Source: Malachius bipustulatus (Eukaryota; Arthropoda; Insecta; Coleoptera; Melyridae). Taken from it: 64,000 nt of DNA. Where the stretch lies: positions 6,058,437-6,122,436 of the forward strand of contig OU342636.1 in assembly GCA_910589415.1 (NCBI GenBank). The letters run 5' to 3'. Below the pieces are notes generated by a model, which worked only from the letters and a program-made list of their open reading frames with translations, had not been told where the DNA came from and searched no databases. The translations under genes were made by a program, and so were the position numbers. Shown here in pieces: positions 11,231-64,000 of the stretch; the first letter of the stretch is position 1; each line of letters starts with the position of its first letter.

Positions 11231-11260
11231 GGGTTTTAAATGATGATAGTTCAAGACCGA

Positions 11261-16704: not shown

Positions 16705-16726
16705 TTTGCGGGTGGGTGGATTTGTT

Positions 16727-17187: not shown

Positions 17188-17214
17188 GGCAAGGAGGGGA
17201 AATCCATTATGGAT

Positions 17215-17238
17215 ACCCTTATCCTCCTGGATAAGGGT
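17215..17238. other. perfect 10-bp hairpin in the non-LTR leader
   Basis: ACCCTTATCC and GGATAAGGGT are perfect inverted repeats around a 4-nt loop. This would fold stably in RNA and lies upstream of the A18 run. Confidence 0.6.
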
Positions 17239-17342
17239 TATGTGGGACTCTCACCCCCTAAAACCCCTCCTTGTGTTGCACCTGGTGTCCTCTCCGATGC
17301 AAGCGTTTGCAGCCAGGGGTTGCCCTTTTGCTGCGCATTCTA

Positions 17343-17350
17343 CTTATATA
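17343..17350 (-). promoter_or_regulatory. TATA box of unit 1, now abutting the non-LTR 5' end
   Basis: TATATAAG ends two bases from the array/element junction. The element therefore lies directly downstream, in sense, of a promoter that originally served the small array gene. Confidence 0.7.
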
Positions 17351-17994
17351 CCTTTCCTAATGTTAGCGCAACCGACGGTTACCGTGGCGCCTCGACTGAA
17401 TGCTAATTGATATGGCGCTCACGAGAACTACAACGAGATGAAGCGTAAACGCTAAAATTTGTTATTTTTTTTATAAACCTATTTCGTTGAAATATGATAA
17501 AGGCGCATCACTTATACGTTTACATGGCAACTTTCGAAGATGAAACACTTGTTTTTATATCTACAGCCACTAGCCCCTAAATCCGAAAATATATCCCCGA
17601 GAAATTTTTTTCAATTTTAAATCGGTCTATGAATGATAAGGGAAGTTACATCTTTTTGTATTGCTTTTATCATCGTTCCAATGATAAATACGTAGACTTT
17701 AATCCCGGGATAAATGCAAATTCATATTCTGGGAATATAAAACTCGAAGAGTTTTTTCGCCATTTTCGCTTCATAATTAAATTATTTTAAAGGGAGGTCA
17801 TGGATTACCCATCATTGCGGTTCCAATAGAGTTGTTTATGAAAATTTAGAGACAATAAACCGGATCATCTTTTGTTTCACATGCGCAATTTTGCAAAGTT
17901 TTTTCTTTCAAAGACTTTGTAGTTGAAAGACGCAAGTTTTTTTAAAAGAACAATGCAGGTACATAACCAAATATTGTCTATTCAAAATATTGAT

Positions 17995-18010
17995 GGCCCT
18001 GAAAAGGGCC
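17995..18010 (-). terminator. histone-type mRNA 3' stem-loop (representative, copy 2)
   Basis: The minus strand reads GGCCCTTTTCAGGGCC: six base pairs (GGCCCT/AGGGCC) closing a UUUC loop, flanked by AAAACCC on the 5' side and ATCA on the 3' side. This fits the consensus bound by SLBP on replication-dependent histone mRNAs, including the GG start, the U-A closing pair and the UUUC loop. It lies 30 nt after the stop codon. Downstream, GAATAGACAA is a weak candidate for the U7 snRNA-binding element. Known function of the element: cleavage without polyadenylation, and S-phase-linked stability. Equivalent hairpins lie 31-46 bp below every ORF in the array. Confidence 0.85.
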
Positions 18011-18040
18011 GGGTTTTAAATGATGATAGTTCAAGACCGA

Positions 18041-18271
18041 CTAGCGGTGGATTTGTTTCTCCAACATCACCAACTCTTTGAACAGCGTGTTCACCAGTTT
18101 CCGTATCCCATCGATTAACGACAAGAGTACGAGGTATTCCGTGTATCTCGTCACCTCGTCGTTTTCAATCATTTCTTCTATTTCGTAGCGTATCTCTTGG
18201 ATATTGGTGTCTAGAATTTTAATAAGCCGCCATCTCTGTTCGATTTGCTTCTTTACATCGGATGTGTTCAT
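18041..18271 (-). CDS. array small protein, representative copy 2: 76-residue helical protein with histone-like gene layout
   Basis: I do not recognise the family. The product has 76 residues, is near neutral (about 14 acidic, 12 basic) and lacks Cys and Pro. Residues 10-36 show a heptad pattern (hydrophobic residues at 10, 17, 20, 24, 27, 31 and 34). Residues about 47-74 form a second amphipathic Leu/Ile-rich helix after a polar link (ENDEVTRYT). A helical hairpin or coiled-coil dimer is the likely fold, and it has no histone fold or basic tail. The ATG at 18271 is the first after the TATA box (TATATAAG 18321-18328, 49 nt upstream). A stem-loop at 17995-18010 follows the stop. The predicted mRNA is only about 310 nt and intronless. 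Role unknown; chromatin or cell-cycle work is only a guess from the 3' end type. Confidence 0.65.
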   Translation of the reverse strand: MNTSDVKKQIEQRWRLIKILDTNIQEIRYEIEEMIENDEVTRYTEYLVLLSLIDGIRKLVNTLFKELVMLEKQIHR

Positions 18272-18320
18272 CTTGAACGTCTGCAGTACTCTGTTGCGGT
18301 TGTGATCGTCTCTACGCCTA

Positions 18321-18328
18321 CTTATATA
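18321..18328 (-). promoter_or_regulatory. TATA box of the array gene (representative, copy 2)
   Basis: The minus strand reads TATATAAG. About 25 nt downstream lies GATCACAACC, whose TCA resembles an insect initiator. Just upstream on the minus strand are short dyads: AACCG-T-CGGTT (18345-18355) and GGCGCC. The same box lies 50-57 bp above the first ATG base of each uninterrupted unit. Confidence 0.75.
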
Positions 18329-19018
18329 CCTTTCCTAATGTTAGCGCAACCGACGGTTACCGTGGCGCCTCGACTGAATGCTAATTGATATGGCGCTCAC
18401 GAGAACTACAACGAGATGAAGCGTAAACGCTAAAATTTGTTATTTTCTTTATAAACCTATTTCGTTGAAATATGATAAAGGCGCATCACTTATACGTTTA
18501 CATGGCAACTTTCGAAGATGAAACACTTGTTTTTATATCTACAGCCACTAGCCCCTAAATCCGAAAATATATCCCCGAGAAATTTTTTTCAATTTTAAAT
18601 CGGTCTATGAATGATAAGGGAAGTTACATCTTTTTGTATTGCTTTTATCATCGTTCCAATGATAAATACGTAGACTTTAATCCCGGGATAAATGCAAATT
18701 CATATTCTGGGAATATAAAACTCGAAGAGTTTTTTCGCCATTTTCGCTTCATAATTAAATTATTTTAAAGGGAGGTCATGGATTACCCATCATTGCGGTT
18801 CCAATAGAGTTGTTTATGAAAATTTAGAGACAATAAACCGGATCATCTTTTGTTTCACATGCGCAATTTTGCAAAGTTTTTTCTTTCAAAGACTTTGTAG
18901 TTGAAAGACGCAAGTTTTTTTAAAAGAACAATGCAGGTACATAACCAAATATTGTCTATTCAAAATATTGATGGCCCTGAAAAGGGCCGGGTTTTAAATG
19001 ATGATAGTTCAAGACCGA

Positions 19019-19249
19019 CTAGCGGTGGATTTGTTTCTCCAACATCACCAACTCTTTGAACAGCGTGTTCACCAGTTTCCGTATCCCATCGATTAACGAC
19101 AAGAGTACGAGGTATTCCGTGTATCTCGTCACCTCGTCGTTTTCAATCATTTCTTCTATTTTGTAGCGTATCTCTTGGATATTGGTGTCTAGAATTTTAA
19201 TAAGCCGCCATCTCTGTTCGATTTGCTTCTTTACATCGGATGTGTTCAT
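19019..19249 (-). CDS. array small protein, copy 3
   Basis: Intact; one change, E30K. TATA box 19299-19306, stem-loop 18973-18988. Confidence 0.6.
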   Translation of the reverse strand: MNTSDVKKQIEQRWRLIKILDTNIQEIRYKIEEMIENDEVTRYTEYLVLLSLIDGIRKLVNTLFKELVMLEKQIHR

Positions 19250-19996
19250 CTTGAACGTCTGCAGTACTCTGTTGCGGTTGTGATCGTCTCTACGCCTACT
19301 TATATACCTTTCCTAATGTTAGCGCAACCGACGGTTACCGTGGCGCCTCGACTGAATGCTAATTGATATGGCGCTCACGAGAACTACAACGAGATGAAGC
19401 GTAAACGCTAAAATTTGTTATTTTTTTTATAAACCTATTTCGTTGAAATATGATAAAGGCGCATCACTTATACGTTTACATGGCAACTTTCGAAGATGAA
19501 ACACTTGTTTTTATATCTACAGCCACTAGCCCCTAAATCCGAAAATATATCCCCGAGAAATTTTTTTCAATTTTAAATCGGTCTATGAATGATAAGGGAA
19601 GTTACATCTTTTTGTATTGCTTTTATCATCGTTCCAATGATAAATACGTAGACTTTAATCCCGGGATAAATGCAAATTCATATTCTGGGAATATAAAACT
19701 CGAAGAGTTTTTTCGCCATTTTCGCTTCATAATTAAATTATTTTAAAGGGAGGTCATGGATTACGGATCATTGCGGTTCCAATAGAGTTGTTTATGAAAA
19801 TTTAGAGACAATAAACCGGATCATCTTTTGTTTCACATGCGCAATTTTGCAAAGTTTTTTCTTTCAAAGACTTTGTAGTTGAAAGACGCAAGTTTTTTTA
19901 AAAGAACAATGCAGGTACATAACCAAATATTGTCTATTCAAAATATTGATGGCCCTGAAAAGGGCCGGGTTTTAAATGATGATAGTTCAAGACCGA

Positions 19997-20227
19997 CTAG
20001 CGGTGGATTTGTTTCTCCAACATCACCAACTCTTTGAACAGCGTGTTCACCAGTTTCCGTATCCCATCGATTAACGACAAGAGTACGAGGTATTCCGTGT
20101 ATCTCGTCACCTCGTCGTTTTCAATCATTTCTTCTATTTCGTAGCGTATCTCTTGGATATTGGTGTCTAGAATTTTAATAAGCCGCCATCTCTGTTCGAT
20201 TTGCTTCTTTACATCGGATGTGTTCAT
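19997..20227 (-). CDS. array small protein, copy 4
   Basis: Intact and identical to the commonest product. TATA box 20277-20284, stem-loop 19951-19966. Confidence 0.6.
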   Translation of the reverse strand: MNTSDVKKQIEQRWRLIKILDTNIQEIRYEIEEMIENDEVTRYTEYLVLLSLIDGIRKLVNTLFKELVMLEKQIHR

Positions 20228-20974
20228 CTTGAACGTCTGCAGTACTCTGTTGCGGTTGTGATCGTCTCTACGCCTACTTATATACCTTTCCTAATGTTAG
20301 CGCAACCGACGGTTACCGTGGCGCCTCGACTGAATGCTAATTGATATGGCGCTCACGAGAACTACAACGAGATGAAGCGTAAACGCTAAAATTTGTTATT
20401 TTTTTTATAAACCTATTTCGTTGAAATATGATAAAGGCGCATCACTTATACGTTTACATGGCAACTTTCGAAGATGAAACACTTGTTTTTATATCTACAG
20501 CCACTAGCCCCTAAATCCGAAAATATATCCCCGAGAAATTTTTTTCAATTTTAAATCGGTCTATGAATGATAAGGGAAGTTACATCTTTTTGTATTGCTT
20601 TTATCATCGTTCCAATGATAAAAACGTAGACTTTAATCCCGGGATAAATGCAAATTCATATTCTGGGAATATAAAACTCGAAGAGTTTTTTCGTCATTTT
20701 CGCTTCATAATTAAATTATTTTAAAGGGAGGTCATGGATTACGGATCATTGCGGTTCCAATAGAGTTGTTTATGAAAATTTAGAGACAATAAACCGGATC
20801 ATCTTTTGTTTCACATGCGCAATTTTGCAAAGTTTTTTCTTTCAAACACTTTGTAGTTAAAAGACGCAAGTTTTTTTAAAAGAACAATGCAGGTACATAA
20901 CCAAATATTGTCTATTCAAAATATTGATGGCCCTGAAAAGGGCCGGGTTTTAAATGATGATAGTTCAAGACCGA

Positions 20975-21205
20975 CTAGCGGTGGATTTGTTTCTCCAACA
21001 TCACCAACTCTTTGAACAGCGTTTTCACCAGTTTCCGTATTCCATCGATTAACGACAAGAGTACGAGGTATTCCGTGTATCTCGTCACCTCGTCGTTTTC
21101 AATCATTTCTTCTATTTCGTAGCGTATCTCTTGGATATTGGTGTCTAGAATTTTAATAAACCGCCATCTCTGTTCGATTTGCTTCTTTACATCGGATGTG
21201 TTCAT
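20975..21205 (-). CDS. array small protein, copy 5, cut from its promoter
   Basis: The ORF is open with L16F and N61K. The second non-LTR copy (21243-23121) separates it from its TATA box at 23146-23153. Stem-loop 20929-20944. Confidence 0.5.
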   Translation of the reverse strand: MNTSDVKKQIEQRWRFIKILDTNIQEIRYEIEEMIENDEVTRYTEYLVLLSLIDGIRKLVKTLFKELVMLEKQIHR

Positions 21206-21242
21206 CTTGAACGTCTGCAGTACTCTGTTGCGGTTGTGATCG

Positions 21243-23121
21243 CTGTGAACATAAATGAATATTGAGTTAGTAAAATTTACTGTGACTCCTGTTGTGTGGG
21301 ATGTGTGTCTTTCTTGAGGTGGGTTTTTTGTGTTTGCTGTATGTGTGTGGGGTGTGGTTTTTGAATGGTGTGTTAGTCAATGACTATGTTTCGTATGAGT
21401 TCGCTAACGTGGAGCGGTGTGTTTTGTTTGAATGTGTTGGTGATGTTTTCCATGTATGTTTTGAGTGTGGGTGTGTTGAGTTCTGTGTGGAGTTGCTCGT
21501 TGCTCATGGTGAACGGGGCGTTTGTGATGATTCTGAGTGTTTTGTTTTGGATGACTTGGAGTTTGTGTAGTGTGTGGTTGGGGAGTGTGTGCCAAGCGGG
21601 GGCGGCGTATGTGATGGCGGGTCTGATTACCTGTGTGTAGATGAGGAGTTTGTTTTTTGTGTTTAGTGTGCTGTGTTTGTTGAGGAGTGGGTAGAGGCGC
21701 CCGAGGGCGGCTCTGGCTTGTCTGATTTTGTGTTGTGTGTGGTCTTTCCAGACCAGTTGTTTGTCGTATGTGAGCCCCAGGTATTTAACCGTTGGGCCCC
21801 ACGGGAGCATCTTGTGCTCGAACTCCACTCTGTGTTGGAAGTGTTTGTGTTTTGTTCCTCCGAAGAGGATGGCTTGTGTCTTGTCAGGGTTGACTTTGAT
21901 TTTCCATCTGGTCGCCCAGTCGGAAATGTATTCGAGGTGTTTTGTGATGTGTTTTGTGATGTATTCTGGTTTTTGTCTTGTGCACGCGATGGCTGTGTCA
22001 TCGGCGTACATGTAGAGTTGTGTGTTTGGGTGTTTTGGTATGTCGGCTGTGTAGATGTTGAAGAGGTGTGGGGATAGTGGGGAACCTTTAGGGACTCCCG
22101 CTTTCGCGGTTCTTTGGGTTGAGTGTTGGTTTTTGATTCGGATTTGGAAGGATCTGTTGTTTAGGAAGGAGTGTGTGAGTTTGATGATGTGTGTGGGCAG
22201 GCCGAGTTCTCTCATTTTGAACAACAGCCCGTCGTGCCAGACCTTGTCGAATGCCTTCGAAATGTCTAGCATGACGGCGCCCGTGTATTGTGGTTTTTGA
22301 GGCTTGAGACCCGTGGTGATTTGTGATGTGAGCCTTGCGGCTTGGTGTGTGGTGGAGTATCCCTCCCTGAAACCGAATTGTTCCGGGGGGAGTGTGTTTT
22401 TCTCGTCGAGTGTTTCTTTGAATCGTGTGAGGATGATGGTTTCGAGTGTTTTGCCGAGGCAGGAGAGGAGGCTGATCGGTCTGTAACTGTCTGCGTGTTT
22501 TTTTGGTTTTCCTGTCTTGTGTATGAGTATGATTGTGGCGTTTTTCCATTGTTGTGGAAAAAAGTTTTGTGTGAGGCAGGCGTTGAAGATTTGTGTGATG
22601 TGTTGGGTGTATGAGTCCGGGAGTAGTTTCAAAAGGATATTGCCAATTTCGTCTTTTCCCGGGGCTTTTTTGTTTTTGAGGTGTGTGATGATGTTTTTGA
22701 CTTCGTCGTAGTCGGTGAGAGTCATGTGGTTTTGTGTGGGTGTGTTGATGATTTTTTGGACTGAGGCTTTTGTGGCTGTGTCTTGTGTTTCGCTGTTTGG
22801 GAAGTGGTTGATTTCGAACTGCTCTTGGAGGGAGTCTGCGAAGAGTTCCACTTTCTCTGCGAGTGTGTGTGCGGTTTTGTTTTTGTGTGTGATGGGGGGG
22901 ATTTCTGTGTGTTTTGTTTTTGTGAGTGCTTTCGTCATTTTCCAGAGAGAGCCGTCACTTGTGTCGAGTGTTTCGAGTGTCTTTCGCCACTCTTCGTTTC
23001 TGTGTTCGTGTATTTTTGTTTTGACTTTGTTGACCAGGTGGTTTGCGATGGCCTTGTAAAAAGGGTCTCGGGTTTTCCTGGCTTTTCTGAGTGCTTTGTT
23101 TTTGTGTGTGATGAGGTTTCT
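21243..23121 (-). mobile_element. Jockey-type non-LTR retrotransposon, 5'-truncated copy
   Basis: The copy is nearly identical to the 3' part of 11529-17340 but without the solo LTR and with a 3' UTR lacking about 15 bp present there. It is flanked by a 12-bp target duplication, CGGTTGTGATCG, at 21231-21242 and 23122-23133. The truncation flush with the target duplication is the signature of target-primed reverse transcription. The 3' junction is at the same base of the unit as in the first copy. Confidence 0.9.
21373..23118 (-). CDS. non-LTR ORF2, reverse transcriptase part, 5'-truncated but otherwise open
   Basis: The frame is open from the truncation to a stop at 21373; the first in-frame ATG is at 22938. 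From that Met, RT motifs are SYRPISLLS (151-159), GFREGYST (189-196), LDISKAFDKVW with Asp225, GVPKGSPLSP (281-290) and YADD (311-314). The usual Gln in the GVPQG motif is Lys here (Gln in the first copy). The endonuclease is missing, so the copy is dead. It supplies the unbroken reading for the region damaged in the first copy. Confidence 0.85.
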   Translation of the reverse strand, partial: NLITHKNKALRKARKTRDPFYKAIANHLVNKVKTKIHEHRNEEWRKTLETLDTSDGSLWKMTKALTKTKHTEIPPITHKNKTAHTLAEKVELFADSLQEQFEINHFPNSETQDTATKASVQKIINTPTQNHMTLTDYDEVKNIITHLKNKKAPGKDEIGNILLKLLPDSYTQHITQIFNACLTQNFFPQQWKNATIILIHKTGKPKKHADSYRPISLLSCLGKTLETIILTRFKETLDEKNTLPPEQFGFREGYSTTHQAARLTSQITTGLKPQKPQYTGAVMLDISKAFDKVWHDGLLFKMRELGLPTHIIKLTHSFLNNRSFQIRIKNQHSTQRTAKAGVPKGSPLSPHLFNIYTADIPKHPNTQLYMYADDTAIACTRQKPEYITKHITKHLEYISDWATRWKIKVNPDKTQAILFGGTKHKHFQHRVEFEHKMLPWGPTVKYLGLTYDKQLVWKDHTQHKIRQARAALGRLYPLLNKHSTLNTKNKLLIYTQVIRPAITYAAPAWHTLPNHTLHKLQVIQNKTLRIITNAPFTMSNEQLHTELNTPTLKTYMENITNTFKQNTPLHVSELIRNIVID

Positions 23122-23842
23122 CGGTTGTGATCGTCTCTACGCCTACTTATATACCTTTCCTAATGTTAGCGCAACCGATGGTTACCGTGGCGCCTCGACT
23201 GAATGCTAATTGATATGGCGCTCACGAGAACTACAACGAGATGAAGCGTAAACGCTAAATTTGTTATTTTTTTTATAAACCTATTTCGTTGAAATATGAT
23301 AAAGGCGCATCACTTATACGTTTACATGGCAACTTTCGAAGATGAAACACTTGTTTTTATATCTACAGCCACTAGCCCCTAAATCCGAAAACATATCCCC
23401 GAGAAATTTTTTTCAATTTTAAATCGGTCTATGAATGATAAGGGAAGTTACATCTTTTTGTATTGCTTTTATCATCGTTCCAATGATAAATACGTAGACT
23501 TTAATCCCGGGATAAATGCAAATTCATATTCTGGGAATATAAAACTCGAAGAGTTTTTTCGCCATTTTCGCTTCATAATTAAATTATTTTAAAGGGAGGT
23601 CATGAATTACCCATCATTGCGGTTCCAATAGAGTTGTTTATGAAAATTTAGAGACAATAAACCGGATCATCTTTTGTTTCACATGCGCAATTTTGCAAAG
23701 TTTTTTCTTTCAAAGACTTTGTAGTTGAAAGACGCAAGTTTTTTTAAAAGAACAATGCAGGTACATAACCAAATATTGTCTATTCAAAATATTGATGGCC
23801 CTGAAAAGGGCCGGGTTTTAAATGATGATAGTTCAAGACCGA

Positions 23843-24073
23843 CTAGCGGTGGATTTGTTTCTCCAACATCACCAACTCTTTGAACAGCGTGTTCACCAGT
23901 TTCCGTATCCCATCGATTAACGACAAGAGTACGAGGTATTCCGTGTATCTCGTCACCTCGTCGTTTTCAATCATTTCTTCTATTTCGTAGCGTATCTCTT
24001 GGATATTGGTGTCTAGAATTTTAATAAGCCGCCATCTCTGTTCGATTTGCTTCTTTACATCGGATGTGTTCAT
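23843..24073 (-). CDS. array small protein, copy 6
   Basis: Intact, commonest product. TATA box 24123-24130, stem-loop 23797-23812. Confidence 0.6.
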   Translation of the reverse strand: MNTSDVKKQIEQRWRLIKILDTNIQEIRYEIEEMIENDEVTRYTEYLVLLSLIDGIRKLVNTLFKELVMLEKQIHR

Positions 24074-24819
24074 CTTGAACGTCTGCAGTACTCTGTTGCG
24101 GTTGTGATCGTCTCTACGCCTACTTATATACCTTTCCTAATGTTAGCGCAACCGACGGTTACCGTGGCGCCTCGACTGAATGCTAATTGATATGGCGCTC
24201 ACGAGAACTACAACGAGATGAAGCGTAAACGCTAAATTTGTTATTTTTTTTATAAACCTATTTCGTTGAAATATGATAAAGGCGCATCACTTATACGTTT
24301 ACATGGCAACTTTCGAAGATGAAACACTTGTTTTTATATCTACAGCCACTAGCCCCTAAATCCGAAAACATATCCCCGAGAAATTTTTTTCAATTTTAAA
24401 TCGGTCTATGAATGATAAGGGAAGTTACTTTTTTTTGTATTGCTTTTATCATCGTTCCAATGATAAATACGTAGACTTTAATCCCGGGATAAATGCAAAT
24501 TCATATTCTGGGAATATAAAACTCGAAGAGTTTTTTCGCCATTTTCGCTTCATAATTAAATTATTTTAAAGGGAGGTCATGGATTACCCATCATTGCGGT
24601 TCCAATAGAGTTGTTTATGAAAATTTAGAGACAATAAACCGGATCATCTTTTGTTTCACATGCGCAATTTTGCAAAGTTTTTTCTTTCAAAGACTTTGTA
24701 GTTGAAAGACGCAAGTTTTTTTAAAAGAACAATGCAGGTACATAACCAAATATTGTCTATTCAAAATATTGATGGCCCTGAAAAGGGCCGGGTTTTAAAT
24801 GATGATAGTTCAAGACCGA

Positions 24820-25050
24820 CTAGCGGTGGATTTGTTTCTCCAACATCACCAACTCTTTGAACAGCGTGTTCACCAGTTTCCGTATCCCATCGATTAACGA
24901 CAAGAGTACGAGGTATTCCGTGTATCTCGTCACCTCGTCGTTTTCAATCATTTCTTCTATTTCGTAGCGTATTTCTTGGATATTGGTGTCTAGAATTTCA
25001 ATAAGCCGCCATCTCTGTTCGATTTGCTTTTTTACATCGGATGTGTTCAT
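24820..25050 (-). CDS. array small protein, copy 7
   Basis: Intact; K18E plus two silent changes (in the codons for Glu26 and a Lys at 7-8). TATA box 25100-25107, stem-loop 24774-24789. Confidence 0.6.
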   Translation of the reverse strand: MNTSDVKKQIEQRWRLIEILDTNIQEIRYEIEEMIENDEVTRYTEYLVLLSLIDGIRKLVNTLFKELVMLEKQIHR

Positions 25051-25800
25051 CTTGAACGTCTGCAGTACTCTGTTGCGGTTGTGATCGTCTCTACGCCTAC
25101 TTATATACCTTTCCTAATGTTAGCGCAACCGACGGTTACCGTGGCGCCTCGACTGAATGCTAATTGATATGGCGCTCACGAGAACTACAACGAGATGAAA
25201 CGTAAACGCTAAAATTTGTTATTTTTTTTATAAACCTATTTCGTTGAAATATGATAAAGGCGCATCACTTATACGTTTACATGGCAACTTTCGAAGGTGA
25301 AACACTTGTTTTTATATCTACAGCCACTAGCCCCTAAATCCAAAAATATATCCCCGAGAAATTTTTTTCAATTTTAAATCGGTCTATGAATGATAAGGGA
25401 AGTTACATCTTTTTGTATTGCTTTTATCATCGTTCCAATGATAAATACGTAGACTTTAATCCCGGGATAAATGCAAATTCATATTCTGGGAATATAAAAC
25501 TCGAAGAGTTTTTTCGCCATTTTCGCTTCATAATTAAATTATTTTAAAGGGAGGTCATGATGGATTACCCATCATTGCGGTTCCAATAGAGTTGTTTATG
25601 AAAATTTAGAGACAATAAACCGGATCATCTTTTGTTTCACATGCGCAATTTTGCAAAGTTTTTTCTTTCAAAGACTTTGTAGTTGAAAGACGCAAGTTTT
25701 TTTAAAAGAACAATGCAGGTACATAACCAAATATTGTCTATTCAAAATATTGATGGCCCCGAAAAGGGCCGGGTTTTAAATGATGATAGTTCAAGACCGA

Positions 25801-26031
25801 CTAGCGGTGGATTTGTTTCTCCAACATCACCAACTCTTTGAACAGCGTGTTCACCAGTTTCCGTATCCCATCGATTAACGACAAGAGTACGAGGTATTCC
25901 GTGTATCTCGTCACCTCGTCGTTTTCAATCATTTCTTCTATTTCGTAGCGTATCTCTTGGATATTGGTGTCTAGAATTTTAATAAGCCGCCATCTCTGTT
26001 CGATTTGCTTCTTTACATCGGATGTGTTCAT
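25801..26031 (-). CDS. array small protein, copy 8
   Basis: Intact, commonest product. TATA box 26081-26088. The stem-loop (25755-25770) has an A to G change that turns the closing U-A pair into U-G. Confidence 0.6.
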   Translation of the reverse strand: MNTSDVKKQIEQRWRLIKILDTNIQEIRYEIEEMIENDEVTRYTEYLVLLSLIDGIRKLVNTLFKELVMLEKQIHR

Positions 26032-26782
26032 CTTGAACGTCTGCAGTACTCTGTTGCGGTTGTGATCGTCTCTACGCCTACTTATATACCTTTCCTAATG
26101 TTAGCGCAACCGACGGTTACCGTGGCGCCTCGACTGAATGCTAATTGATATGGCGCTCACGAGAACTACAACGAGATGAAGCGTAAACGCTAAAATTTGT
26201 TATTTTTTTTATAAACCTATTTCGTTGAAATATGATAAAGGCGCATCACTTATACGTTTACATGGCAACTTTCGAAGATGAAACACTTGTTTTTATATCT
26301 ACAGCCACTAGCCCCTAAATCCGAAAATATATCCCCGAGAAATTTTTTTTCAATTTTAAATCGGTCTATGAATGATAAGGGAAGTTACATCTTTTTGTAT
26401 TGCTTTTATCATCGTTCCAATGATAAATACGTAGACTTTAATCCCGGGATAAATGCAAATTCATATTCTGGGAATATTAAACTCGAAGAGTTTTTTCGCC
26501 ATTTTCGCTTCATAATTAAATTATTTTAAAGGGAGGTCATGATGGATTACCCATCATTGCGGTTCCAATAGAGTTGTTTATGAAAATTTAGAGACAATAA
26601 ACCGGATCATCTTTTGTTTCACATGCGCAATTTTGCAAAGTTTTTTCTTTCAAAGACTTTGTAGTTGAAAGACGCAAGTTTTTTTAAAAGAACAATGCAG
26701 GTACATAACCAAATATTGTCTATTCAAAATATTGATGGCCCTGAAAAGGGCCGGGTTTTAAATGATGATAGTTCAAGACCGA

Positions 26783-27013
26783 CTAGCGGTGGATTTGTTT
26801 CTCCAACATCACCAACTCTTTGAACAGCGTGTTCACCAGTTTCCGTATCCCATCGATTAACGACAAGAGTACGAGGTATTCCGTGTATCTCGTCACCTCG
26901 TCGTTTTCAATCATTTCTTCTATTTCGTAGCGTATCTCTTGGATATTGGTGTCTAGAATTTTAATAAGCCGCCATCTCTGTTCGATTTGCTTCTTTACAT
27001 CGGATGTGTTCAT
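26783..27013 (-). CDS. array small protein, copy 9
   Basis: Intact, commonest product. TATA box 27063-27070, stem-loop 26737-26752. Confidence 0.6.
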   Translation of the reverse strand: MNTSDVKKQIEQRWRLIKILDTNIQEIRYEIEEMIENDEVTRYTEYLVLLSLIDGIRKLVNTLFKELVMLEKQIHR

Positions 27014-27760
27014 CTTGAACGTCTGCAGTACTCTCTTGCGGTTGTGATCGTCTCTACGCCTACTTATATACCTTTCCTAATGTTAGCGCAACCGACGGTT
27101 ACCGTGGCGCCTCGACTGAATGCTAATTGATATGGCGCTCACGAGAACAACAACGAAATGAAGCGTAAACGCTAAAATTTGTTATTTTTTTTATAAACCT
27201 ATTTCGTTGAAATATGATAAAGGCGCATCACTTATACGTTTACATGGCAACTTTCGAAGATGAAACACTTGTTTTTATATCTACAGCCACTAGCCCCTAA
27301 ATCCGAAAATATATCCCCGAGAAATTTTTTTCAATTTTAAATCGGTCTATGAATGATAAGGGAAGTTTCATCTTTTTGTATTGCTTTTATCATCGTTCCA
27401 ATGATAAATACGTAGACTTTAATCCCGGGATAAATGCAAATTCATATTCTGGGAATATAAAACTCGAAGTGTTTTTTCGCCATTTTCGCTTCATAATTAA
27501 ATTATTTTAAAGGGAGGTCATGGATTACCCATCATTGCGGTTCCAATAGAGTTGTTTATGAAAATTTAGAGACAATAAACCGGATCATCTTTTGTTTCAC
27601 ATGCGCAATTTTGCAAAGTTTTTTCTTTCAAAGACTTTGTAGTTGAAAGACGCAAGTTTTTTTAAAAGAACAATGCAGGTACATACCCAAATATTGTCTA
27701 TTCAAAATATTGATGGCCCTGAAAAGGGCCGGGTTTTAAATGATGATAGTTCAAGACCGA

Positions 27761-54200: not shown

Positions 54201-54431
54201 CTAGCGGTGGATTTGTTTCTCCAACATCACCAACTCTTTGAACAGCGTGTTCACCAGTTTCCGTATCCCATCGATTAACGACAAGAGTACGAGGTATTCC
54301 GTGTATCTCGTCACCTCGTCGTTTTCAATCATTTCTTCTATTTCGTAGCGTATCTCTTGGATATTGGTGTCTAGAATTTTAATAAGCCGCCATCTCTGTT
54401 CGATTTGCTTCTTTACATCGGATGTGTTCAT
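54201..54431 (-). CDS. array small protein, copy 37
   Basis: Intact; spacer haplotype as copy 33, four units away. TATA box 54481-54488, stem-loop 54155-54170. Confidence 0.6.
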   Translation of the reverse strand: MNTSDVKKQIEQRWRLIKILDTNIQEIRYEIEEMIENDEVTRYTEYLVLLSLIDGIRKLVNTLFKELVMLEKQIHR

Positions 54432-55179
54432 CTTGAACGTCTGCAGTACTCTGTTGCGGTTGTGATCGTCTCTACGCCTACTTATATACCTTTCCTAATG
54501 TTAGCGCAACCGACGGTTACCGTGGCGCCTCGACTGAATGCTAATTAATATGGCGCTCACGAGAACTACAACGAGATGAAGCGTAAACGCTAAAATTTGT
54601 TATTTTTTTTATAAACCTATTTCGTTGAAATATGATAAAGGCGCATCACTTATACGTTTACATGGCAACTTTCGAAGATGAAACACTTGTTTTTATATCT
54701 ACAGCCACTAGCCCCTAAATCCGAAAATATATCCCCGAGAAATTTTTTTCAATTTTAAATCGGTCTATGAATGATAAGGGAAGTTACATCTTTTTGTATT
54801 GCTTTTATCATCGTTCCAATGATAAATACGTAGACTTTAATCCCGGGATAAATGCAAATTCATATTCTGGGAATATAAAACTCGAAGAGTTTTTTCGCCA
54901 TTTTCGCTTCATAATTAAATTATTTTAAAGGGAGGTCATGGATTACTCATCATTGCGGTTCCAATAGAGTTGTTTATGAAAATTTAGAGACAATAAACCG
55001 GATCATCTTTTGTTTCACATGCGCAATTTTGCAAAGTTTTTTCTTTCAAAGACTTTGTAGTTGAAAGACGCAAGTTTTTTTTAAAAGAACAATGCAGGTA
55101 CATAACCAAATATTGTCTATTCAAAATATTGATGGCCCTGAAAAGGGCCGGGTTTTAAATGATGATAGTTCAAGACCGA

Positions 55180-55410
55180 CTAGCGGTGGATTTGTTTCTC
55201 CAACATCACCAACTCTTTGAACAGCGTGTTCACCAGTTTCCGTATCCCATCGATTAACGACAAGAGTACGAGGTATTCCGTGTATCTCGTCACCTCGTCG
55301 TTTTCAATCATTTCTTCTATTTCGTAGCGTATCTCTTGGATATTGGTGTCTAGAATTTTAATAAGCCGCCATCTCTGTTCGATTTGCTTCTTTACATCGG
55401 ATGTGTTCAT
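55180..55410 (-). CDS. array small protein, copy 38
   Basis: Intact, commonest product. TATA box 55460-55467, stem-loop 55134-55149. Confidence 0.6.
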   Translation of the reverse strand: MNTSDVKKQIEQRWRLIKILDTNIQEIRYEIEEMIENDEVTRYTEYLVLLSLIDGIRKLVNTLFKELVMLEKQIHR

Positions 55411-56157
55411 CTTGAACGTCTGCAGTACTCTGTTGCGGTTGTGATCGTCTCTACGCCTACTTATATACCTTTCCTAATGTTAACGCAACCGACGGTTACC
55501 GTGGCGCCTCGACTGAATGCTAATTGATATGGCGCTCACGAGAACTACAACGAGATGAAGCGTAAACGCTAAAATTTGTTATTTTTTTTATAAACCTATT
55601 TCGTTGAAATATGATAAAGGCGCATCACTTATACGTTTACATGGCAACTTTCGAAGATGAAACACTTGTTTTTATATCTACAGCCACTAGCCCCTAAATC
55701 CGAAAATATATCCCCGAGAAATTTTTTTCAATTTTAAATCGGTCTATGAATGATAAGGGAAGTTACATCTTTTTGTATTGCTTTTATCATCGTTCCAATG
55801 ATAAATACGTAGACTTTAATCCCGGGATAAATGCAAATTCATATTCTGGGAATATAAAACTCGAAGAGTTTTTTCGCCATTTTCGCTTCATAATTAAATT
55901 ATTTTAAAGGGAGGTCATGGATTACCCATCATTGCGGTTCCAATAGAGTTGTTTATGAAAATTTAGAGACAATAAACCGGATCATCTTTTGTTTCACATG
56001 CGCAATTTTGCAAAGTTTTTTCTTTCAAACACTTTGTAGTTGAAAGACGCAAGTTTTTTTAAAAGAACAATGCAGGTACATAACCAAATATTGTCTATTC
56101 AAAATATTGATGGCCCTGAAAAGGGCCGGGTTTTAAATGATGATAGTTCAAGACCGA

Positions 56158-56388
56158 CTAGCGGTGGATTTGTTTCTCCAACATCACCAACTCTTTGAAC
56201 AGCGTGTTCACCAGTTTCCGTATCCCATCGATTAACGACAAGAGTACGAGGTATTCCGTGTATCTCGTCACCTCGTCGTTTTCAATCATTTCTTCTATTT
56301 CGTAGCGTATCTCTTGGATATTGGTGTCTAGAATTTTAATAAGCCGCCATCTCTTTTCGATTTGCTTCTTTACATCGGATGTGTTCAT
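56158..56388 (-). CDS. array small protein, copy 39
   Basis: Intact; Q12K. TATA box 56438-56445, stem-loop 56112-56127. The promoter has changes on both sides of the TATA box (TCTCGACGCC, TTTCCGAATG). Confidence 0.6.
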   Translation of the reverse strand: MNTSDVKKQIEKRWRLIKILDTNIQEIRYEIEEMIENDEVTRYTEYLVLLSLIDGIRKLVNTLFKELVMLEKQIHR

Positions 56389-57139
56389 CTTGAACGTCTG
56401 CAGTACTTTGTTGCGGTTGTGATCGTCTCGACGCCTACTTATATACCTTTCCGAATGTTAGCGCAACCGACGGTTACCGTGGCGCCTCGACTGAATGCTA
56501 ATTGATATGGCGCTCACGAGAACTACAACGAGATGAAGCGTAAACGCTAAAATTTGTTATTTTTTTTATAAACCTATTTCGTTGAAATATGATAAAGGCG
56601 CATCACTTATACGTTTACATGGCAACTTTCGAAGATGAAACACTTGTTTTTATATCTACAGCCACTAGCCCCTAAATCCGAAAATATATCCCCGAGAAAT
56701 TTTTTTCAATTTTAAATCGGTCTATGAATGATAAGGGAAGTTACTTACATCTTTTTGTATTGCTTTTATCATCGTTCCAATGATAAATACGTAGACTTTA
56801 ATCCCGGGATAAATGCAAATTCATATTCTGGGAATATAAAACTCGAAGAGTTTTTTCGTCATTTTCGCTTCATAATTAAATTATTTTAAAGGGAGGTCAT
56901 GGATTACTCATCATTGCGGTTCCAATAGAGTTGTTTATGAAAATTTAGAGACAATAAACCGGATCATCTTTTGTTTCACATGCGCAATTTTGCAAAGTTT
57001 TTTCTTTCAAAGACTTTGTAGTTGAAAGACGCAAGTTTTTTTAAAAGAACAATGCAGGTACATAACCAAATATTGTCTATTCAAAATATTGATGGCCCTG
57101 AAAAGGGCCGGGTTTTAAATGATGATAGTTCAAGACCGA

Positions 57140-57370
57140 CTAGCGGTGGATTTGTTTCTCCAACATCACCAACTCTTTGAACAGCGTGTTCACCAGTTTC
57201 CGTATCCCATCGATTAACGACAAGAGTACGAGGTATTCCGTGTATCTCGTCACCTCGTCGTTTTCAATCATTTCTTCTATTTCGTAGCGTATCTCTTGGA
57301 TATTGGTGTCTAGAATTTTAATAAGCCGCCATCTCTGTTCGATTTGCTTCTTTACATCGGATGTGTTCAT
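57140..57370 (-). CDS. array small protein, copy 40
   Basis: Intact; a TTAC duplication (GTTACTTACATC near 56745) lengthens its spacer. TATA box 57420-57427, stem-loop 57094-57109. Confidence 0.6.
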   Translation of the reverse strand: MNTSDVKKQIEQRWRLIKILDTNIQEIRYEIEEMIENDEVTRYTEYLVLLSLIDGIRKLVNTLFKELVMLEKQIHR

Positions 57371-58120
57371 CTTGAACGTCTGCAGTACTCTGTTGCGGTT
57401 GTGATCGTCTCTACGCCTACTTATATACCTTTCCTAATGTTAGCGCAACCGACGGTTACCGTGGCGCCTCGACTGAATGCTAATTGATATGGCGCTCACG
57501 AGAACTACAACGAGATGAAGCGTAAACGCTAAAATTTGTTATTTTTTTTATAAACCTATTTCGTTGAAATATGATAAAGGCGCATCACTTATACGTTTAC
57601 ATGGCAACTTTCGAAGATGAAACACTTGTTTTTATATCTACAGCCACTAGCCCCTAAATCCGAAAATATATCCCCGAGAAATTTTTTTCAATTTTAAATC
57701 GGTCTATGAATGATAAGGGAAGTTACATCTTTTTGTATTGCTTTTATCATCGTTCCAATGATAAATACGTAGACTTTAATCCCGGGATAAATGCAAATTC
57801 ATATTCTGGGAATATAAAACTCGAAGGGTTTTTTCTCATTTTCGCTTCATAATTAAATTATTTTAAAGGGAGGTCATGGATTACCCATCATTGCGGTTCC
57901 AATAGAGTTGTTTATGAAAATTTAGAGACAATAAACCGGATCATCTTTTGTTTCACATGCGCAATTTTGCAAAGTTTTTTCTTTTTTTCAAAGACTTTGT
58001 AGTTGAAAGACGCAAGTTTTTTTAAAAGAACAATGCAGGTACATAACCAAATATTGTCTATTCAAAATATTGATGGCCCTGAAAAGGGCCGGGTTTTAAA
58101 TGATGATAGTTCAAGACCGA

Positions 58121-58351
58121 CTAGCGGTGGATTTGTTTCTCCAACATCACCAACTCTTTGAACAGCGTGTTCACCAGTTTCCGTATCCCATCGATTAACG
58201 ACAAGAGTACGAGGTATTCCGTGTATCTCGTCACCTCGTCGTTTTCAATCATTTCTTCTATTTCGTAGCGTATCTCTTGGATATTGGTGTCTAGAATTTT
58301 AATAAGCCGCCATCTCTGTTCGATTTGCTTCTTTACATCGGATGTGTTCAT
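58121..58351 (-). CDS. array small protein, copy 41
   Basis: Intact; spacer haplotype (AAGGGTTTTTTCTCATT plus the four-T expansion) as copy 13, 28 units away. TATA box 58401-58408, stem-loop 58075-58090. Confidence 0.6.
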   Translation of the reverse strand: MNTSDVKKQIEQRWRLIKILDTNIQEIRYEIEEMIENDEVTRYTEYLVLLSLIDGIRKLVNTLFKELVMLEKQIHR

Positions 58352-59098
58352 CTTGAACGTCTGCAGTACTCTGTTGCGGTTGTGATCGTCTCTACGCCTA
58401 CTTATATACCTTTCCTAGTGTTAGCGCAACCGACGGTTACCGTGGCGCCTCGACTGAATGCTAATTGATATGGCGCTCACGAGAACTACAACGAGATGAA
58501 GCGTAAACGCTAAAATTTGTTATTTTTTTTATAAACCTATTTCGTTGAAATATGATAAAGGCGCATCACTTATACGTTTACATGGCAACTTTCGAAGATG
58601 AAACACTTGTTTTTATATCTACAGCCACTAGCCCCTAAATCCGAAAATATATCCCCGAGAAATTTTTTTCAATTTTAAATCGGTCTATGAATGATAAGGG
58701 AAGTTACATCTTTTTGTATTGCTTTTATCATCGTTCCAATGATAAATACGTAGACTTTAATCCCGGGATAAATGCAAATTCATATTCTGGGATTATAAAA
58801 CTCGAAGAGTTTTTTCGCCATTTTCGCTTCATAATTAAATTATTTTAAATGGAGGTCATGGATTACCCATCATTGCGGTTCCAATAGAGTTGTTTATGAA
58901 AATTTAGAGACAATAAACCGGATCATCTTTTGTTTCACATGCGCAATTTTGCAAAGTTTTTTCTTTCAAAGACTTTGTAGTTGAAAGACGCAAGTTTTTT
59001 TAAAAGAACAATGCAGGTACATAACCAAATATTGTCTATTCAAAATATTGATGGCCCTGAAAAGGGCCGGGTTTTAAATGATGATAGTTCAAGACCGA

Positions 59099-59329
59099 CT
59101 AGCGGTGGATTTGTTTCTCCAACATCACCAACTCTTTGAACAGCGTGTTCACCAGTTTCCGTATCCCATCGATTAACGACAAGAGTACGAGGTATTCCGT
59201 GTATCTCGTCACCTCGTCGTTTTCAATCATTTCTTCTATTTCGTAGCGTATCTCTTGGATATTGGTGTCTAGAATTTTAATAAGCCGCCATCTCTGTTCG
59301 ATTTGCTTCTTTACATCGGATGTGTTCAT
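59099..59329 (-). CDS. array small protein, copy 42
   Basis: Intact; spacer variants GGGATTATAAAAC and TAAATGGAGG recur beside copy 46. TATA box 59379-59386, stem-loop 59053-59068. Confidence 0.6.
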   Translation of the reverse strand: MNTSDVKKQIEQRWRLIKILDTNIQEIRYEIEEMIENDEVTRYTEYLVLLSLIDGIRKLVNTLFKELVMLEKQIHR

Positions 59330-60076
59330 CTTGAACGTCTGCAGTACTCTGTTGCGGTTGTGATCGTCTCTACGCCTACTTATATACCTTTCCTAGTGTT
59401 AGCGCAACCGACGGTTACCGTGGCGCCTCGACTGAATGCTAATTGATATGGCGCTCACGAGAACTACAACGAGATGAAGCGTAAACGCTAAAATTTGTTA
59501 TTTTTTTTATAAACCTATTTCGTTGAAATATGATAAAGGCGCATCACTTATACGTTTACATGGCAACTTTCGAAGATGAAACACTTGTTTTTATATCTAC
59601 AGCCACTAGCCCCTAAATCCGAAAATATATCCCCGAGAAATTTTTTTCAATTTTAAATCGGTCTATGAATGATAAGGGAAGTTACATCTTTTTGTATTGC
59701 TTTTATCATCGTTCCAATGATAAATACGTAGACTTTAATCCCGGGATAAATGCAAATTCATATTCTGGGAATATAAAACTCGAAGAGTTTTTTCGCCATT
59801 TTCGCTTCATAATTAAATTATTTTAAATGGAGGTCATGGATTACCCATCATTGCGGTTCCAATAGAGTTGTTTATGAAAATTTAGAGACAATAAACCGGA
59901 TCATCTTTTGTTTCACATGCGCAATTTTGCAAAGTTTTTTCTTTCAAAGACTTTGTAGTTGAAAGACGCAAGTTTTTTTAAAAGAACAATGCAGGTACAT
60001 AACCAAATATTGTCTATTCAAAATATTGATGGCCCTGAAAAGGGCCGGGTTTTAAATGATGATAGTTCAAGACCGA

Positions 60077-60307
60077 CTAGCGGTGGATTTGTTTCTCCAA
60101 CATCACCAACTCTTTGAACAGCGTGTTCACCAGTTTCCGTATCCCATCGATTAACGACAAGAGTACGAGGTATTCCGTGTATCTCGTCACCTCGTCGTTT
60201 TCAATCATTTCTTCTATTTCGTAGCGTATCTCTTGGATATTGGTGTCTAGAATTTTAATAAGCCGCCATCTCTGTTCGATTTGCTTCTTTACATCGGATG
60301 TGTTCAT
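60077..60307 (-). CDS. array small protein, copy 43
   Basis: Intact, commonest product. TATA box 60357-60364, stem-loop 60031-60046. Confidence 0.6.
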   Translation of the reverse strand: MNTSDVKKQIEQRWRLIKILDTNIQEIRYEIEEMIENDEVTRYTEYLVLLSLIDGIRKLVNTLFKELVMLEKQIHR

Positions 60308-61054
60308 CTTGAACGTCTGCAGTACTCTGTTGCGGTTGTGATCGTCTCTACGCCTACTTATATACCTTTCCTAATGTTAGCGCAACCGACGGTTACCGTG
60401 GCGCCTCGACTGAATGCTAATTGATATGGCGCTCACGAGAACTACAACGAGATGAAGCGTAAACGCTAAAATTTGTTATTTTTTTTATAAACCTATTTCG
60501 TTGAAATATGATAAAGGCGCATCACTTATACGTTTACATGGCAACTTTCGAAGATGAAACACTTGTTTTTATATCTACAGCCACTAGCCCCTAAATCCGA
60601 AAATATATCCCCGAGAAATTTTTTTCAATTTTAAATCGGTCTATGAATGATAAGGGAAGTTACATCTTTTTGTATTGCTTTTATCATCGTTCCAATGATA
60701 AATACGTAGACTTTAATCCCGGGATAAATGCAAATTCATATTCTGGGAATATAAAACTCGAAGAGTTTTTTCGCCATTTTCGCTGCATAATTAAATTATT
60801 TTAAAGGGAGGTCATGGATTACCCATCATTGCGGTTCCAATAGAGTTGTTTATGAAAATTTAGAGACAATAAACCGGATCATCTTTTGTTTCACATGCGC
60901 AATTTTGCAAAGTTTTTTCTTTCAAAGACTTTGTAGTTGAAAGACGCAAGTTTTTTTAAAAGAACAATGCAGGTACATAACCAAATATTGTCTATTCAAA
61001 ATATTGATGGCCCTGAAAAGGGCCGGGTTTTAAATGATGATAGTTCAAGACCGA

Positions 61055-61289
61055 CTAGCGGTGGATTTGTTTCTCCAACATCACCAACTCTTTGAACAGC
61101 GTGTTCACCTGTTTCCGTATCCCATCGATTAACGACAAGAGTACGAGGTAGGTATTCCGTGTATCTCGTCACCTCGTCGTTTTCAATCATTTCTTCTATT
61201 TCGTAGCGTATCTCTTGGATATTGGTGTCTAGAATTTTAATAAGCCGCCATCTCTGTTCGATTTGCTTCTTTACATCGGATGTGTTCAT
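61055..61289 (-). pseudogene. array small protein, copy 44, frameshifted
   Basis: A four-base duplication (plus strand GAGGTAGGTATTCC near 61145-61156) shifts the frame after about residue 47. The shifted frame runs to 60996 through the stem-loop (61009-61024). TATA box 61339-61346. Confidence 0.75.
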
Positions 61290-62040
61290 CTTGAACGTCT
61301 GCAGTACTCTGTTGCGGTTGTGATCGTCTCTACGCCTACTTATATACCTTTCCTAATGTTAGCGCAACCGACGGTTACCGTGGCGCCTCGACTGAATGCT
61401 AATTGATATGGCGCTCACGAGAACTACAACGAGATGAAGCGTAAACGCTAAAATTTGTTATTTTTTTTATAAACCTATTTCGTTGAAATATGATAAAGGC
61501 GCATCACTTATACGTTTACATGGCAACTTTCGAAGATGAAACACTTGTTTTTATATCTACAGCCACTAGCCCCTAAATCCGAAAATATATCCCCGAGAAA
61601 TTTTTTTCAATTTTAAATCGGTTTATGAATGATAAGGGAAGTTACATCTTTTTGTATTGCTTTTATCATCGTTCCAATGATAAATACGTAGACTTTAATC
61701 CCGGGATAAATGCAAATTCATATTCTGGGAATATAAAACTCGAAGAGTTTTTTCGCCATTTTCGCTTCATAATTAAATTATTTTAAAGGGAGGTCATGGA
61801 TTACCCATCATTGCGGTTCCAATAGAGTTGTTTATGAAAATTTAGAGACAATAAACCGGATCATCTTTTGTTTCACATGCGCAATTTTGCAAAGTTTTTT
61901 CTTTTTTTCAAAGACTTTGTAGTTGAAAGACGCAAGTTTTTTTAAAAGAACAATGCAGGTACATAACCAAATATTGTCTATTCAAAATATTGATGGCCCT
62001 GAAAAGGGCCGGGTTTTAAATGATGATAGTTCAAGACCGA

Positions 62041-62271
62041 CTAGCGGTGGATTTGTTTCTCCAACATCACCAACTCTTTGAACAGCGTGTTCACCAGTTT
62101 CCGTATCCCATCGATTAACGACAAGAGTACGAGGTATTCCGTGTATCTCGTCACCTCGTCGTTTTCAATCATTTCTTCTATTTCGTAGCGTATCTCTTGG
62201 ATATTGGTGTCTAGAATTTTAATAAGCCGCCATCTCTGTTCGATTTGCTTCTTTACATCGGATGTGTTCAT
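62041..62271 (-). CDS. array small protein, copy 45
   Basis: Intact, commonest product. TATA box 62321-62328, stem-loop 61995-62010. Confidence 0.6.
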   Translation of the reverse strand: MNTSDVKKQIEQRWRLIKILDTNIQEIRYEIEEMIENDEVTRYTEYLVLLSLIDGIRKLVNTLFKELVMLEKQIHR

Positions 62272-63018
62272 CTTGAACGTCTGCAGTACTCTGTTGCGGT
62301 TGTGATCGTCTCTACGCCTACTTATATACCTTTCCTAATGTTAGCGCAACCGACGGTTACCGTGGCGCCTCGACTGAATGCTAATTGATATGGCGCTCAC
62401 GAGAACTACAACGAGATGAAGCGTAAACGCTAAAATTTGTTATTTTTTTTATAAACCTATTTCGTTGAAATATGATAAAGGCGCATCACTTATACGTTTA
62501 CATGGCAACTTTCGAAGATGAAACACTTGTTTTTATATCTACAGCCACTAGCCCCTAAATCCGAAAATATATCCCCGAGAAATTTTTTTCAATTTTAAAT
62601 CGGTCTATGAATGATAAGGGAAGTTACATCTTTTTGTATTGCTTTTATCATCGTTCCAATGATAAATACGTAGACTTTAATCCCGGGATAAATGCAAATT
62701 CATATTCTGGGATTATAAAACTCGAAGAGTTTTTTCGCCATTTTCGCTTCATAATTAAATTATTTTAAATGGAGGTCATGGATTACCCATCATTGCGGTT
62801 CCAATAGAGTTGTTTATGAAAATTTAGAGACAATAAACCGGATCATCTTTTGTTTCACATGCGCAATTTTGCAAAGTTTTTTCTTTCAAAGACTTTGTAG
62901 TTGAAAGACGCAAGTTTTTTTAAAAGAACAATGCAGGTACATAACCAAATATTGTCTATTCAAAATATTGATGGCCCTGAAAAGGGCCGGGTTTTAAATG
63001 ATGATAGTTCAAGACCGA

Positions 63019-63249
63019 CTAGCGGTGGATTTGTTTCTCCAACATCACCAACTCTTTGAACAGCGTGTTCACCAGTTTCCGTATCCCATCGATTAACGAC
63101 AAGAGTACGAGGTATTCCGTGTATCTCGTCACCTCGTCGTTTTCAATCATTTCTTCTATTTCGTAGCGTATCTCTTGGATATTGGTGTCTAGAATTTTAA
63201 TAAGCCGCCATCTCTGTTCGATTTGCTTCTTTACATCGGATGTGTTCAT
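63019..63249 (-). CDS. array small protein, copy 46
   Basis: Intact, commonest product. TATA box 63299-63306, stem-loop 62973-62988. Confidence 0.6.
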   Translation of the reverse strand: MNTSDVKKQIEQRWRLIKILDTNIQEIRYEIEEMIENDEVTRYTEYLVLLSLIDGIRKLVNTLFKELVMLEKQIHR

Positions 63250-63953
63250 CTTGAACGTCTGCAGTACTCTGTTGCGGTTGTGATCGTCTCTACGCCTACT
63301 TATATACCTTTCCTAATGTTAGCGCAACCGACGGTTACCGTGGCGCCTCGACTGAATGCTAATTGATATGGCGCTCACGAGAACTACAACGAGATGAAGC
63401 GTAAACGCTAAAATTTGTTATTTTTTTATAAACCTATTTCGTTGAAATATGATAAAGGCGCATCACTTATACGTTTACATGGCAACTTTCGAAGATGAAA
63501 CACTTGTTTTTATATCTACAGCCACTAGCCCCTAAATCCGAAAATATATCCCCGAGAAATTTTTTTCAATTTTAAATCGGTTTATGAATGATAAGGGAAG
63601 TTACATCTTTTTGTATTGCTTTTATCATCGTTCCAATGATAAATACGTAGACTTTAATCCCGGGATAAATGCAAATTCATATTCTGGGAATATAAAACTC
63701 GAAGAGTTTTTTCGCCATTTTCGCTTCATAATTAAATTATTTTAAAGGGAGGTCATGGATTACCCATCATTGCGGTTCCAATAGAGTTGTTTATGAAAAT
63801 TTAGAGACAATAAACCGGATCATCTTTTGTTTCACATGCGCAATTTTGCAAAGTTTTTTCTTTTTTTCAAAGACTTTGTAGTTGAAAGACGCAAGTTTTT
63901 TTAAAAGAGCAATGCAGGTACATAACCAAATATTGTCTATTCAAAATATTGAT

Positions 63954-63969
63954 GGCCCTGAAAAGGGCC
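63954..63969 (-). terminator. histone-type 3' stem-loop, copy 47
   Basis: The hairpin of the next unit is present, and the window ends at the first base of its stop codon, so the array goes on. Confidence 0.8.
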
Positions 63970-64000
63970 GGGTTTTAAATGATGATAGTTCAAGACCGAC

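Follow-up and report, generated by a model that had tools for sequence, protein, structure and literature searches.

Gene-like tandem units with histone-type 3' hairpins in the beetle Malachius bipustulatus

The array A unit and its extent

The stretch analysed here, referred to as the window, comprises 64,000 nucleotides (nt) of contig C7 of Malachius bipustulatus (bases 6058437-6122436), in a genome of 544 Mb in 52 contigs. It contains a tandem array, array A, in which each unit carries a small open reading frame (ORF) and a hairpin of the type found at the ends of replication-dependent histone mRNAs. The hairpin, GGCCCTTTTCAGGGCC, was found 47 times, always on the minus strand (43 exact copies and four with one mismatch), compared to a mean of 0.02 per shuffled window when up to two mismatches were allowed. 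A sequence-only reading of this DNA had placed an array of about 47 units at 17341 to 64000. The number of hairpins agrees with this, but the range does not, as one hairpin (at 11215) lies outside it, the first unit seen begins at 10730, two insertions of long interspersed nuclear elements (LINEs) break the array within the window, and the array runs ~200 kb or more past the window. We followed array A for 200 kb beyond the window, giving a joined stretch of 264 kb that includes 500 N. Allowing up to two mismatches, we counted 227 hairpins in this stretch, of which 220 are exact, and the spacing between neighbouring hairpins is 977-986 bp in 205 of 226 cases. Array A has not ended within the 264 kb, because the last hairpin sits at the end of the stretch. 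The exact hairpin occurs 305 times genome-wide (17 forward, 288 reverse) and the reversed pattern does not occur; since some of the 305 belong to other loci, array A would contain at most ~280 exact hairpins.

The start codon lies inside the window for 46 of the 47 units, the unit at 63954 being clipped by the window end. An exact 76-codon ORF was present in 42 of these 46 units; the unit at 61009 is frameshifted, that at 37523 has lost its stop through an indel near the end, and those at 48285 and 40463 have early stops. The TATA box TATATAAG was at the expected place in 44 of 46 units, and the two units that lack it (11215 and 20929) are cut at the box position by a retrotransposon. The consensus spacings are 49 nt from the TATA box to the ATG and 30 nt from the stop codon to the hairpin, as the sequence-only reading had stated. 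When the unit was shuffled by mononucleotides, an ORF of at least 76 amino acids (aa) ending no more than 60 nt from the hairpin appeared in 13 of 5000 shuffles, and the next-longest ATG-started ORF of the consensus unit has 53 codons. The sense strand of the consensus lacks AATAAA and contains ATTAAA at two sites, one in the spacer and the other within the coding sequence (CDS). As judged from its sequence, the unit appears to have the characteristics of a replication-dependent histone gene, being intronless, with a TATA box, short untranslated regions (UTRs) and no AATAAA on the sense strand. Recomputing the hairpins, 76-codon ORFs, TATA boxes and spacings bore out the earlier observation as a whole, and the array A unit looks like a gene rather than a plain satellite.

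Histone-type hairpins in the array and elsewhere in the genome

The Rfam model RF00032 (Histone3) matched at 43 places in the window with 34.6 bits, narrowly above its gathering score of 34. To this we compared histone genes of the same beetle. On contig C2, canonical H2A and H2B genes form a divergent pair with the hairpins GGCCCTTCTCAGGGCC and GGTTCTTTTCAGAACC, respectively, and ACAAAA follows both. The H2A hairpin is identical to that of a second array, array B, described below, and the H2B hairpin is a compensated version of it. A pattern search placed numerous GGTTCTTTTCAGAACC-AC hairpins on C2, starting at ~61.17 Mb (among the matches listed, the first 100 of 211), and this cluster, in which one H2A-H2B pair was examined, is probably the canonical histone array. 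The stem was then compared between nine hand-picked gene types: A, B, B', C, D, F, H2A, H2B and a transposase gene. All six stem pairs are formed in 9/9 gene types (54/54 cells). Changes on both sides of the stem affect two pairs and three cells; shuffles reached two pairs in 40 of 500 cases and three cells in 7 of 500. This covariation supports the structure without proving it, because the set of gene types is small and hand-picked. The earlier assignment of the hairpin to the histone mRNA 3' processing type thus appears sound, with a model score narrowly over the cut-off and a hairpin of the same kind as those of the beetle's own H2A and H2B.

A genome search with RF00032, in which 75 of 115,895 candidates were scored, gave at least 72 matches: 35 in array B on contig C14, 29 in array A and eight at single places. 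The same search of 14 control genomes gave a match in one, under the cut-off. For array B we examined a single stretch of 2.8 kb (L029), and of the eight single places we examined seven, the remaining one being C14:39651002. Array B (C14 23274799-23325292) has at least 35 hairpins, and its units of 1276 bp contain TATAAAAG, an ORF for a basic 94-aa product (MAEEKRAARIRKWYL...) and the hairpin 28 nt past the stop. The seven single places comprise one canonical H2B gene and six non-histone loci, namely three copies of a family C with an ORF and one broken copy, one copy of a family D, and, on C6, a copy of B that has diverged. The arrangement of TATA box, small ORF and histone hairpin recurs at array B, at its C6 copy, and on C14 at 27.58-27.64 Mb and 39.62 Mb. 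A cluster on C14 contains ten hairpins with perfect six-pair stems in 29,761 contiguous bases, each preceded by a small ORF (a count that depends on the pattern used): two of family C, two of family D, three of B' (96-99 aa) and three of F (72 aa). A full-length ORF of family B', C, D or F was present at eight of the ten; one copy of F has ATA in place of ATG, and another retains only the equally shortened frame. The phenomenon is wider than the earlier note described, with several gene families, two of them amplified. That a satellite-like array is really an amplified gene family is supported by the histone kind of the hairpin and by the recurrence of the layout with other ORFs at four places. 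By eye, a GGGGAGG-like run lies upstream of the TATA box in families B, C and D (L029, L035, L034, L036) and not in array A.

Other hairpins are of a different nature. Two exact single hairpins (L001, L002) have no comparable small ORF in front, and that of L002 follows, by eye, a mariner-like stretch. Dispersed hairpins were considered as further host genes and rejected, as all six examined (among the matches listed, the first 100 of 211) were transposase-like. By eye, each of the six (L039-L044 on C1 and C2; e.g. C1:6279690, C1:12927236, C2:21425397) follows a Tc1/mariner-like transposase gene; a Pfam search with one such piece gave no match. In two of the six (L040, L043) the stop codon of the transposase frame lies 15 nt ahead of the histone-type hairpin, which is followed by ACAACTT. 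This suggests that a DNA transposon may use histone-type 3' ends.

The encoded proteins and the changes between copies

The calculated isoelectric points (pI) are 5.4 for A, 10.4 for B, 12.0 for C, and 6.3 or 8.0 for the 69-aa and 93-aa forms of D. The family C protein has 59 aa, of which 19 are lysine or arginine. The A product had been described as neutral and helical; the first term is slightly off, given the pI, and the second agrees with the two helices predicted for A. AlphaFold2 models from single sequences are helical hairpins for both A (helices 3-37 and 40-75, mean predicted local distance difference test score 91.9) and B (helices 2-50 and 55-93, mean score 89.4). Each model has two long helices; the histone fold has three. 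Structure matches of A from VIA-align were many near-equal generic helical hairpins, which we took as uninformative.

No relative of A was found among 5.8 billion predicted proteins. A pattern for A fitted 34 stretches of viral contigs, none of which was confirmed, and phage DNA gave no relative. The best PDB sequence match of A, TFAM, had an E value of 0.48 and was taken as chance. None of A, B, C, D, F or B' had a Pfam match over the cut-off; the best for B, DUF632, fell under it (E 0.009, 15.8 bits compared to a cut-off of 25) and was set aside. For B, six database proteins shared words with the query, and none reached E <= 1. The homology searches for C, D, F and B' covered Pfam, and the structure search covered A. 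That the product is unlike any histone agrees with the lack of a Pfam match for A over the cut-off and of PDB sequences below E 0.48, and the profile search and structure prediction that the sequence-only reading had proposed gave no homologue of A and a predicted helical hairpin. B and B' are homologous, with 44% of residues identical across 88 aa (E 3.9e-8). Pairwise tests among A, B, C and D did not indicate a single family. For C and B', shuffles scored as well in 0 of 500 local and 112 of 500 global alignments, so the two may be related. A and F have a common start, MNT[S/E]D, and similar sequence after the hairpin (GACAATATTTGGTT, GACTATTTGGTT).

Copies at different loci were compared for protein-level constraint. 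In family C, L032 and L034 differ by eight synonymous and one nonsynonymous change (nonsynonymous rate, dN, 0.0073; synonymous rate, dS, 0.2315), and 41-57% of the aligned positions differ more than 300 bp upstream. The C14 and C6 copies of B differ by six synonymous and three nonsynonymous changes (dN 0.0136, dS 0.1096). These patterns indicate protein-level constraint on families C and B between loci. For array A, the substitution test used 218 aligned units, those of the 226 intervals that measure 850-1100 bp, and an intact 76-aa ORF was found in 198 of them. Coding substitutions did not differ clearly from the spacer rate, with 53 distinct changes seen and 64.9 expected (p 0.075). Relative to the consensus, deletions affect four CDS positions and 190 spacer positions, the latter number being inflated by the spacer's long A/T runs. 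Copy-weighted divergence was 0.25% in the CDS and 1.0% in the spacer; we do not count this as proof, because the densities of distinct substitutions are close (22.9 and 27.9 per 100 bp, respectively). The coding case for A therefore rests on ORF retention, on the layout it has in common with constrained families and on the predicted structure, and not on the substitution test.

Readings of the array and insertions at its predicted start site

With its TATA box, intronless 76-codon ORF, short 3' UTR, histone hairpin and hundreds of copies, array A is probably a tandemly amplified protein-coding gene of the replication-dependent histone type whose product is not a histone. RNA polymerase II would start ~25-30 nt past the TATA box, and the hairpin would be bound by SLBP, followed by cleavage a few nt downstream by the U7 small nuclear ribonucleoprotein. 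The mRNA would lack a poly(A) tail and would reach high levels only during S phase or, alternatively, in cells of the germline or early embryo that store it, and the tandem copy number would raise output as it does for histones. The product, a predicted antiparallel helical hairpin, would likely dimerise into a helical bundle. Its most likely role, a view we hold only weakly, is that of a component associated with chromatin or chromosomes and required in amounts that scale with DNA synthesis, with the basic B and C proteins as possible partners of the acidic A protein.

Several results weigh against this reading. The RF00032 score clears its cut-off just barely, and the stem in array A is followed by ATCAAT where the H2A and H2B genes examined have ACAAAA. 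The helical hairpin is a common fold, and a Foldseek search with the A model gave no match at E <= 0.001. The link between the A and F proteins is weak, with shuffles as good in 18 of 500 global and 184 of 500 local alignments. The nonsynonymous to synonymous counts between B' copies are 6/0, 6/1 and 2/1, and that between D copies is 2/0, so that some families look relaxed or positively selected. Of the 218 array A units, 20 lack the 76-aa ORF, and the distinct changes (36 nonsynonymous, six stop, 11 synonymous) fit the neutral expectation (p 0.29).

These results also bear on three other explanations. Meiotic drivers or their suppressors, comparable to multicopy systems of the Stellate type, could have borrowed this 3' end from histone genes to gain a pulse of expression at premeiotic S phase, with copy number driven up by an arms race rather than by demand for the protein. 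The amplification of two families on different contigs, the lack of a homologue for A and B (the two proteins searched), the excess of nonsynonymous change between B' copies and the broken copies within array A would all suit such selfish amplification, but comparison between loci shows constraint on families C and B, and we regard this explanation as unlikely. The broken units and the neutral-looking substitutions within the array could instead reflect a gene copy that was amplified as a satellite, most units being silent. Such a satellite would not be expected to keep its ORF in so many units or to show deletions that spare the CDS (with the same caution about A/T runs), and the layout recurs at other loci, where two families have constrained ORFs; we therefore consider a coding-looking satellite very improbable. 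Finally, the proteins could be diverged linker-histone- or protamine-like products, of a kind already known, that arose inside a histone cluster and retained its 3' end. The hairpin is of the histone kind and B and C are strongly basic, as this would predict, but A and the 69-aa form of D are not basic, none of the six families has a Pfam match over the cut-off, and the gene cluster is on C14 while the histone-type hairpins cluster on C2. An origin of this kind appears improbable.

The gene type that we favour, a histone-type gene for a non-histone protein, resembles metazoan replication-dependent histone genes in its TATA promoter, short intronless ORF, hairpin GGYYCTTYTCAGRRCC soon after the stop and tandem multicopy arrays, and the beetle's own H2A and H2B genes have a hairpin of the array A kind. 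It differs in that the proteins are non-histone, in that the arrays consist of a single gene (units of ~980 and 1276 bp) rather than a histone quintet, and in their location on C7 and C14 rather than in the histone region on C2. Multicopy driver genes of the Stellate type and coding satellites are known, and array A is like them in repeating one small coding gene in tandem, with hundreds of nearly identical copies. To our knowledge these systems have not been described with histone-type 3' ends, and here several protein families have this end in common. The hairpin and its downstream element have been described (PMC1924863), and histone mRNAs are introduced in one article as the only known non-polyadenylated metazoan mRNAs (PMC10388802). 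According to a passage of a 2009 article, no non-histone target of SLBP had been reported (PMC2781718). Among the papers listed from the open-licence PubMed Central literature, which mostly excludes subscription papers, we found no non-histone protein-coding gene with a histone 3' end, as judged by titles, abstract starts and selected passages. We therefore regard these as a new type of gene, one that would use an RNA pathway already known. Several protein families with a histone 3' end would mean that new genes can recruit this pathway; they would offer a natural experiment on which features are sufficient for it and would point to proteins required in step with DNA replication.

Six large inserts interrupt array A units in the 264 kb. 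Four of them (I1 to I4) are LINEs in sense orientation at one unit position (within 2 bp), just before ATCACAACCGC, ~20-22 nt past the first base of the TATA box and near the predicted start site. I1 and I2 (5811 and 1879 bp) lie in the window, and the other two at C7:6160741-6163650 and C7:6178360-6182253 (2910 and 3894 bp, respectively). The four are taken as separate events because their lengths and upstream ends differ. I5 (12.7 kb) and I6, an antisense LINE, are inserted elsewhere in the unit. I2, I3 and I4 share 31-39% aa identity in the frame bearing the reverse transcriptase (RT) and 26-29% with I6, and I1 is of the I2 family, so that by sequence the start-site LINEs represent three lineages. 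I1 begins with a 170-bp piece that matches the 3' end of the I3 family. A canonical H2A gene (L033, L038; C2:61532500-61537150) also carries a LINE of the I3 family in its promoter/start region, where the insertion is flanked by a repeat of TCGAGTTGAGCC and is 100% identical to I3 over the 769 and 214 bp compared. The presence of one LINE family in both array A and H2A, as seen in this one H2A case, is consistent with shared chromatin, e.g. the histone locus body. R1 and R2 are site-specific LINEs of ribosomal DNA, and the start-site LINEs resemble them in inserting repeatedly on the sense strand at a single site of a multicopy gene, with 5' truncations of different extent. They differ in their target, the promoter/start region of a protein-coding array, and in that one family is also found at the H2A start region. 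Taken together, these loci could form a second, non-histone set of replication-coupled genes, although we think it rather doubtful that every part of this picture will hold. The set would comprise at least four small proteins, unrelated or related only distantly (helical hairpins, both acidic and basic, and a peptide resembling protamine), whose genes cluster on C14 much as histone genes do and are amplified on C7 and C14. Made from histone-type mRNAs, these proteins would act jointly on newly replicated chromatin, and LINE lineages would have specialised on the start sites of their genes and on histone genes through a common nuclear body.

Table 1. Features of array A and its insertions in the window.
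Feature	Position in window	Strand	Remarks
Outermost unit seen, partial, with variant 76-codon CDS and hairpin	10730..11528	-	Bordered by Ty3/gypsy-like retroelement and LINE I1
LINE insertion I1	11529..17339	-	Endonuclease and RT frames, broken; at the unit's start-site position
Array A, four hairpins (17995, 18973, 19951, 20929)	17340..21242	-	
Example histone-type hairpin GGCCCTTTTCAGGGCC	17995..18010	-	One of 47 in the window
Example CDS, 76 codons and stop: MNTSDVKKQIEQRWRLIKILDTNIQEIRYEIEEMIENDEVTRYTEYLVLLSLIDGIRKLVNTLFKELVMLEKQIHR	18041..18271	-	
Example TATA box TATATAAG	18321..18328	-	49 nt before ATG
LINE insertion I2, I1 family	21243..23121	-	Same unit position as I1; ~98-99% nt identity over shared parts
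Array A units, unbroken run continuing beyond the window	23122..64000	-	

The remainder of the window (1-10729) adjoins array A and contains, by eye, pieces of a Ty3/gypsy-like retroelement. The C-terminal part of one reading frame in this region contains a CCCH-like motif, DCYFYQTSSCRNGSACRYLH, also noted by eye.

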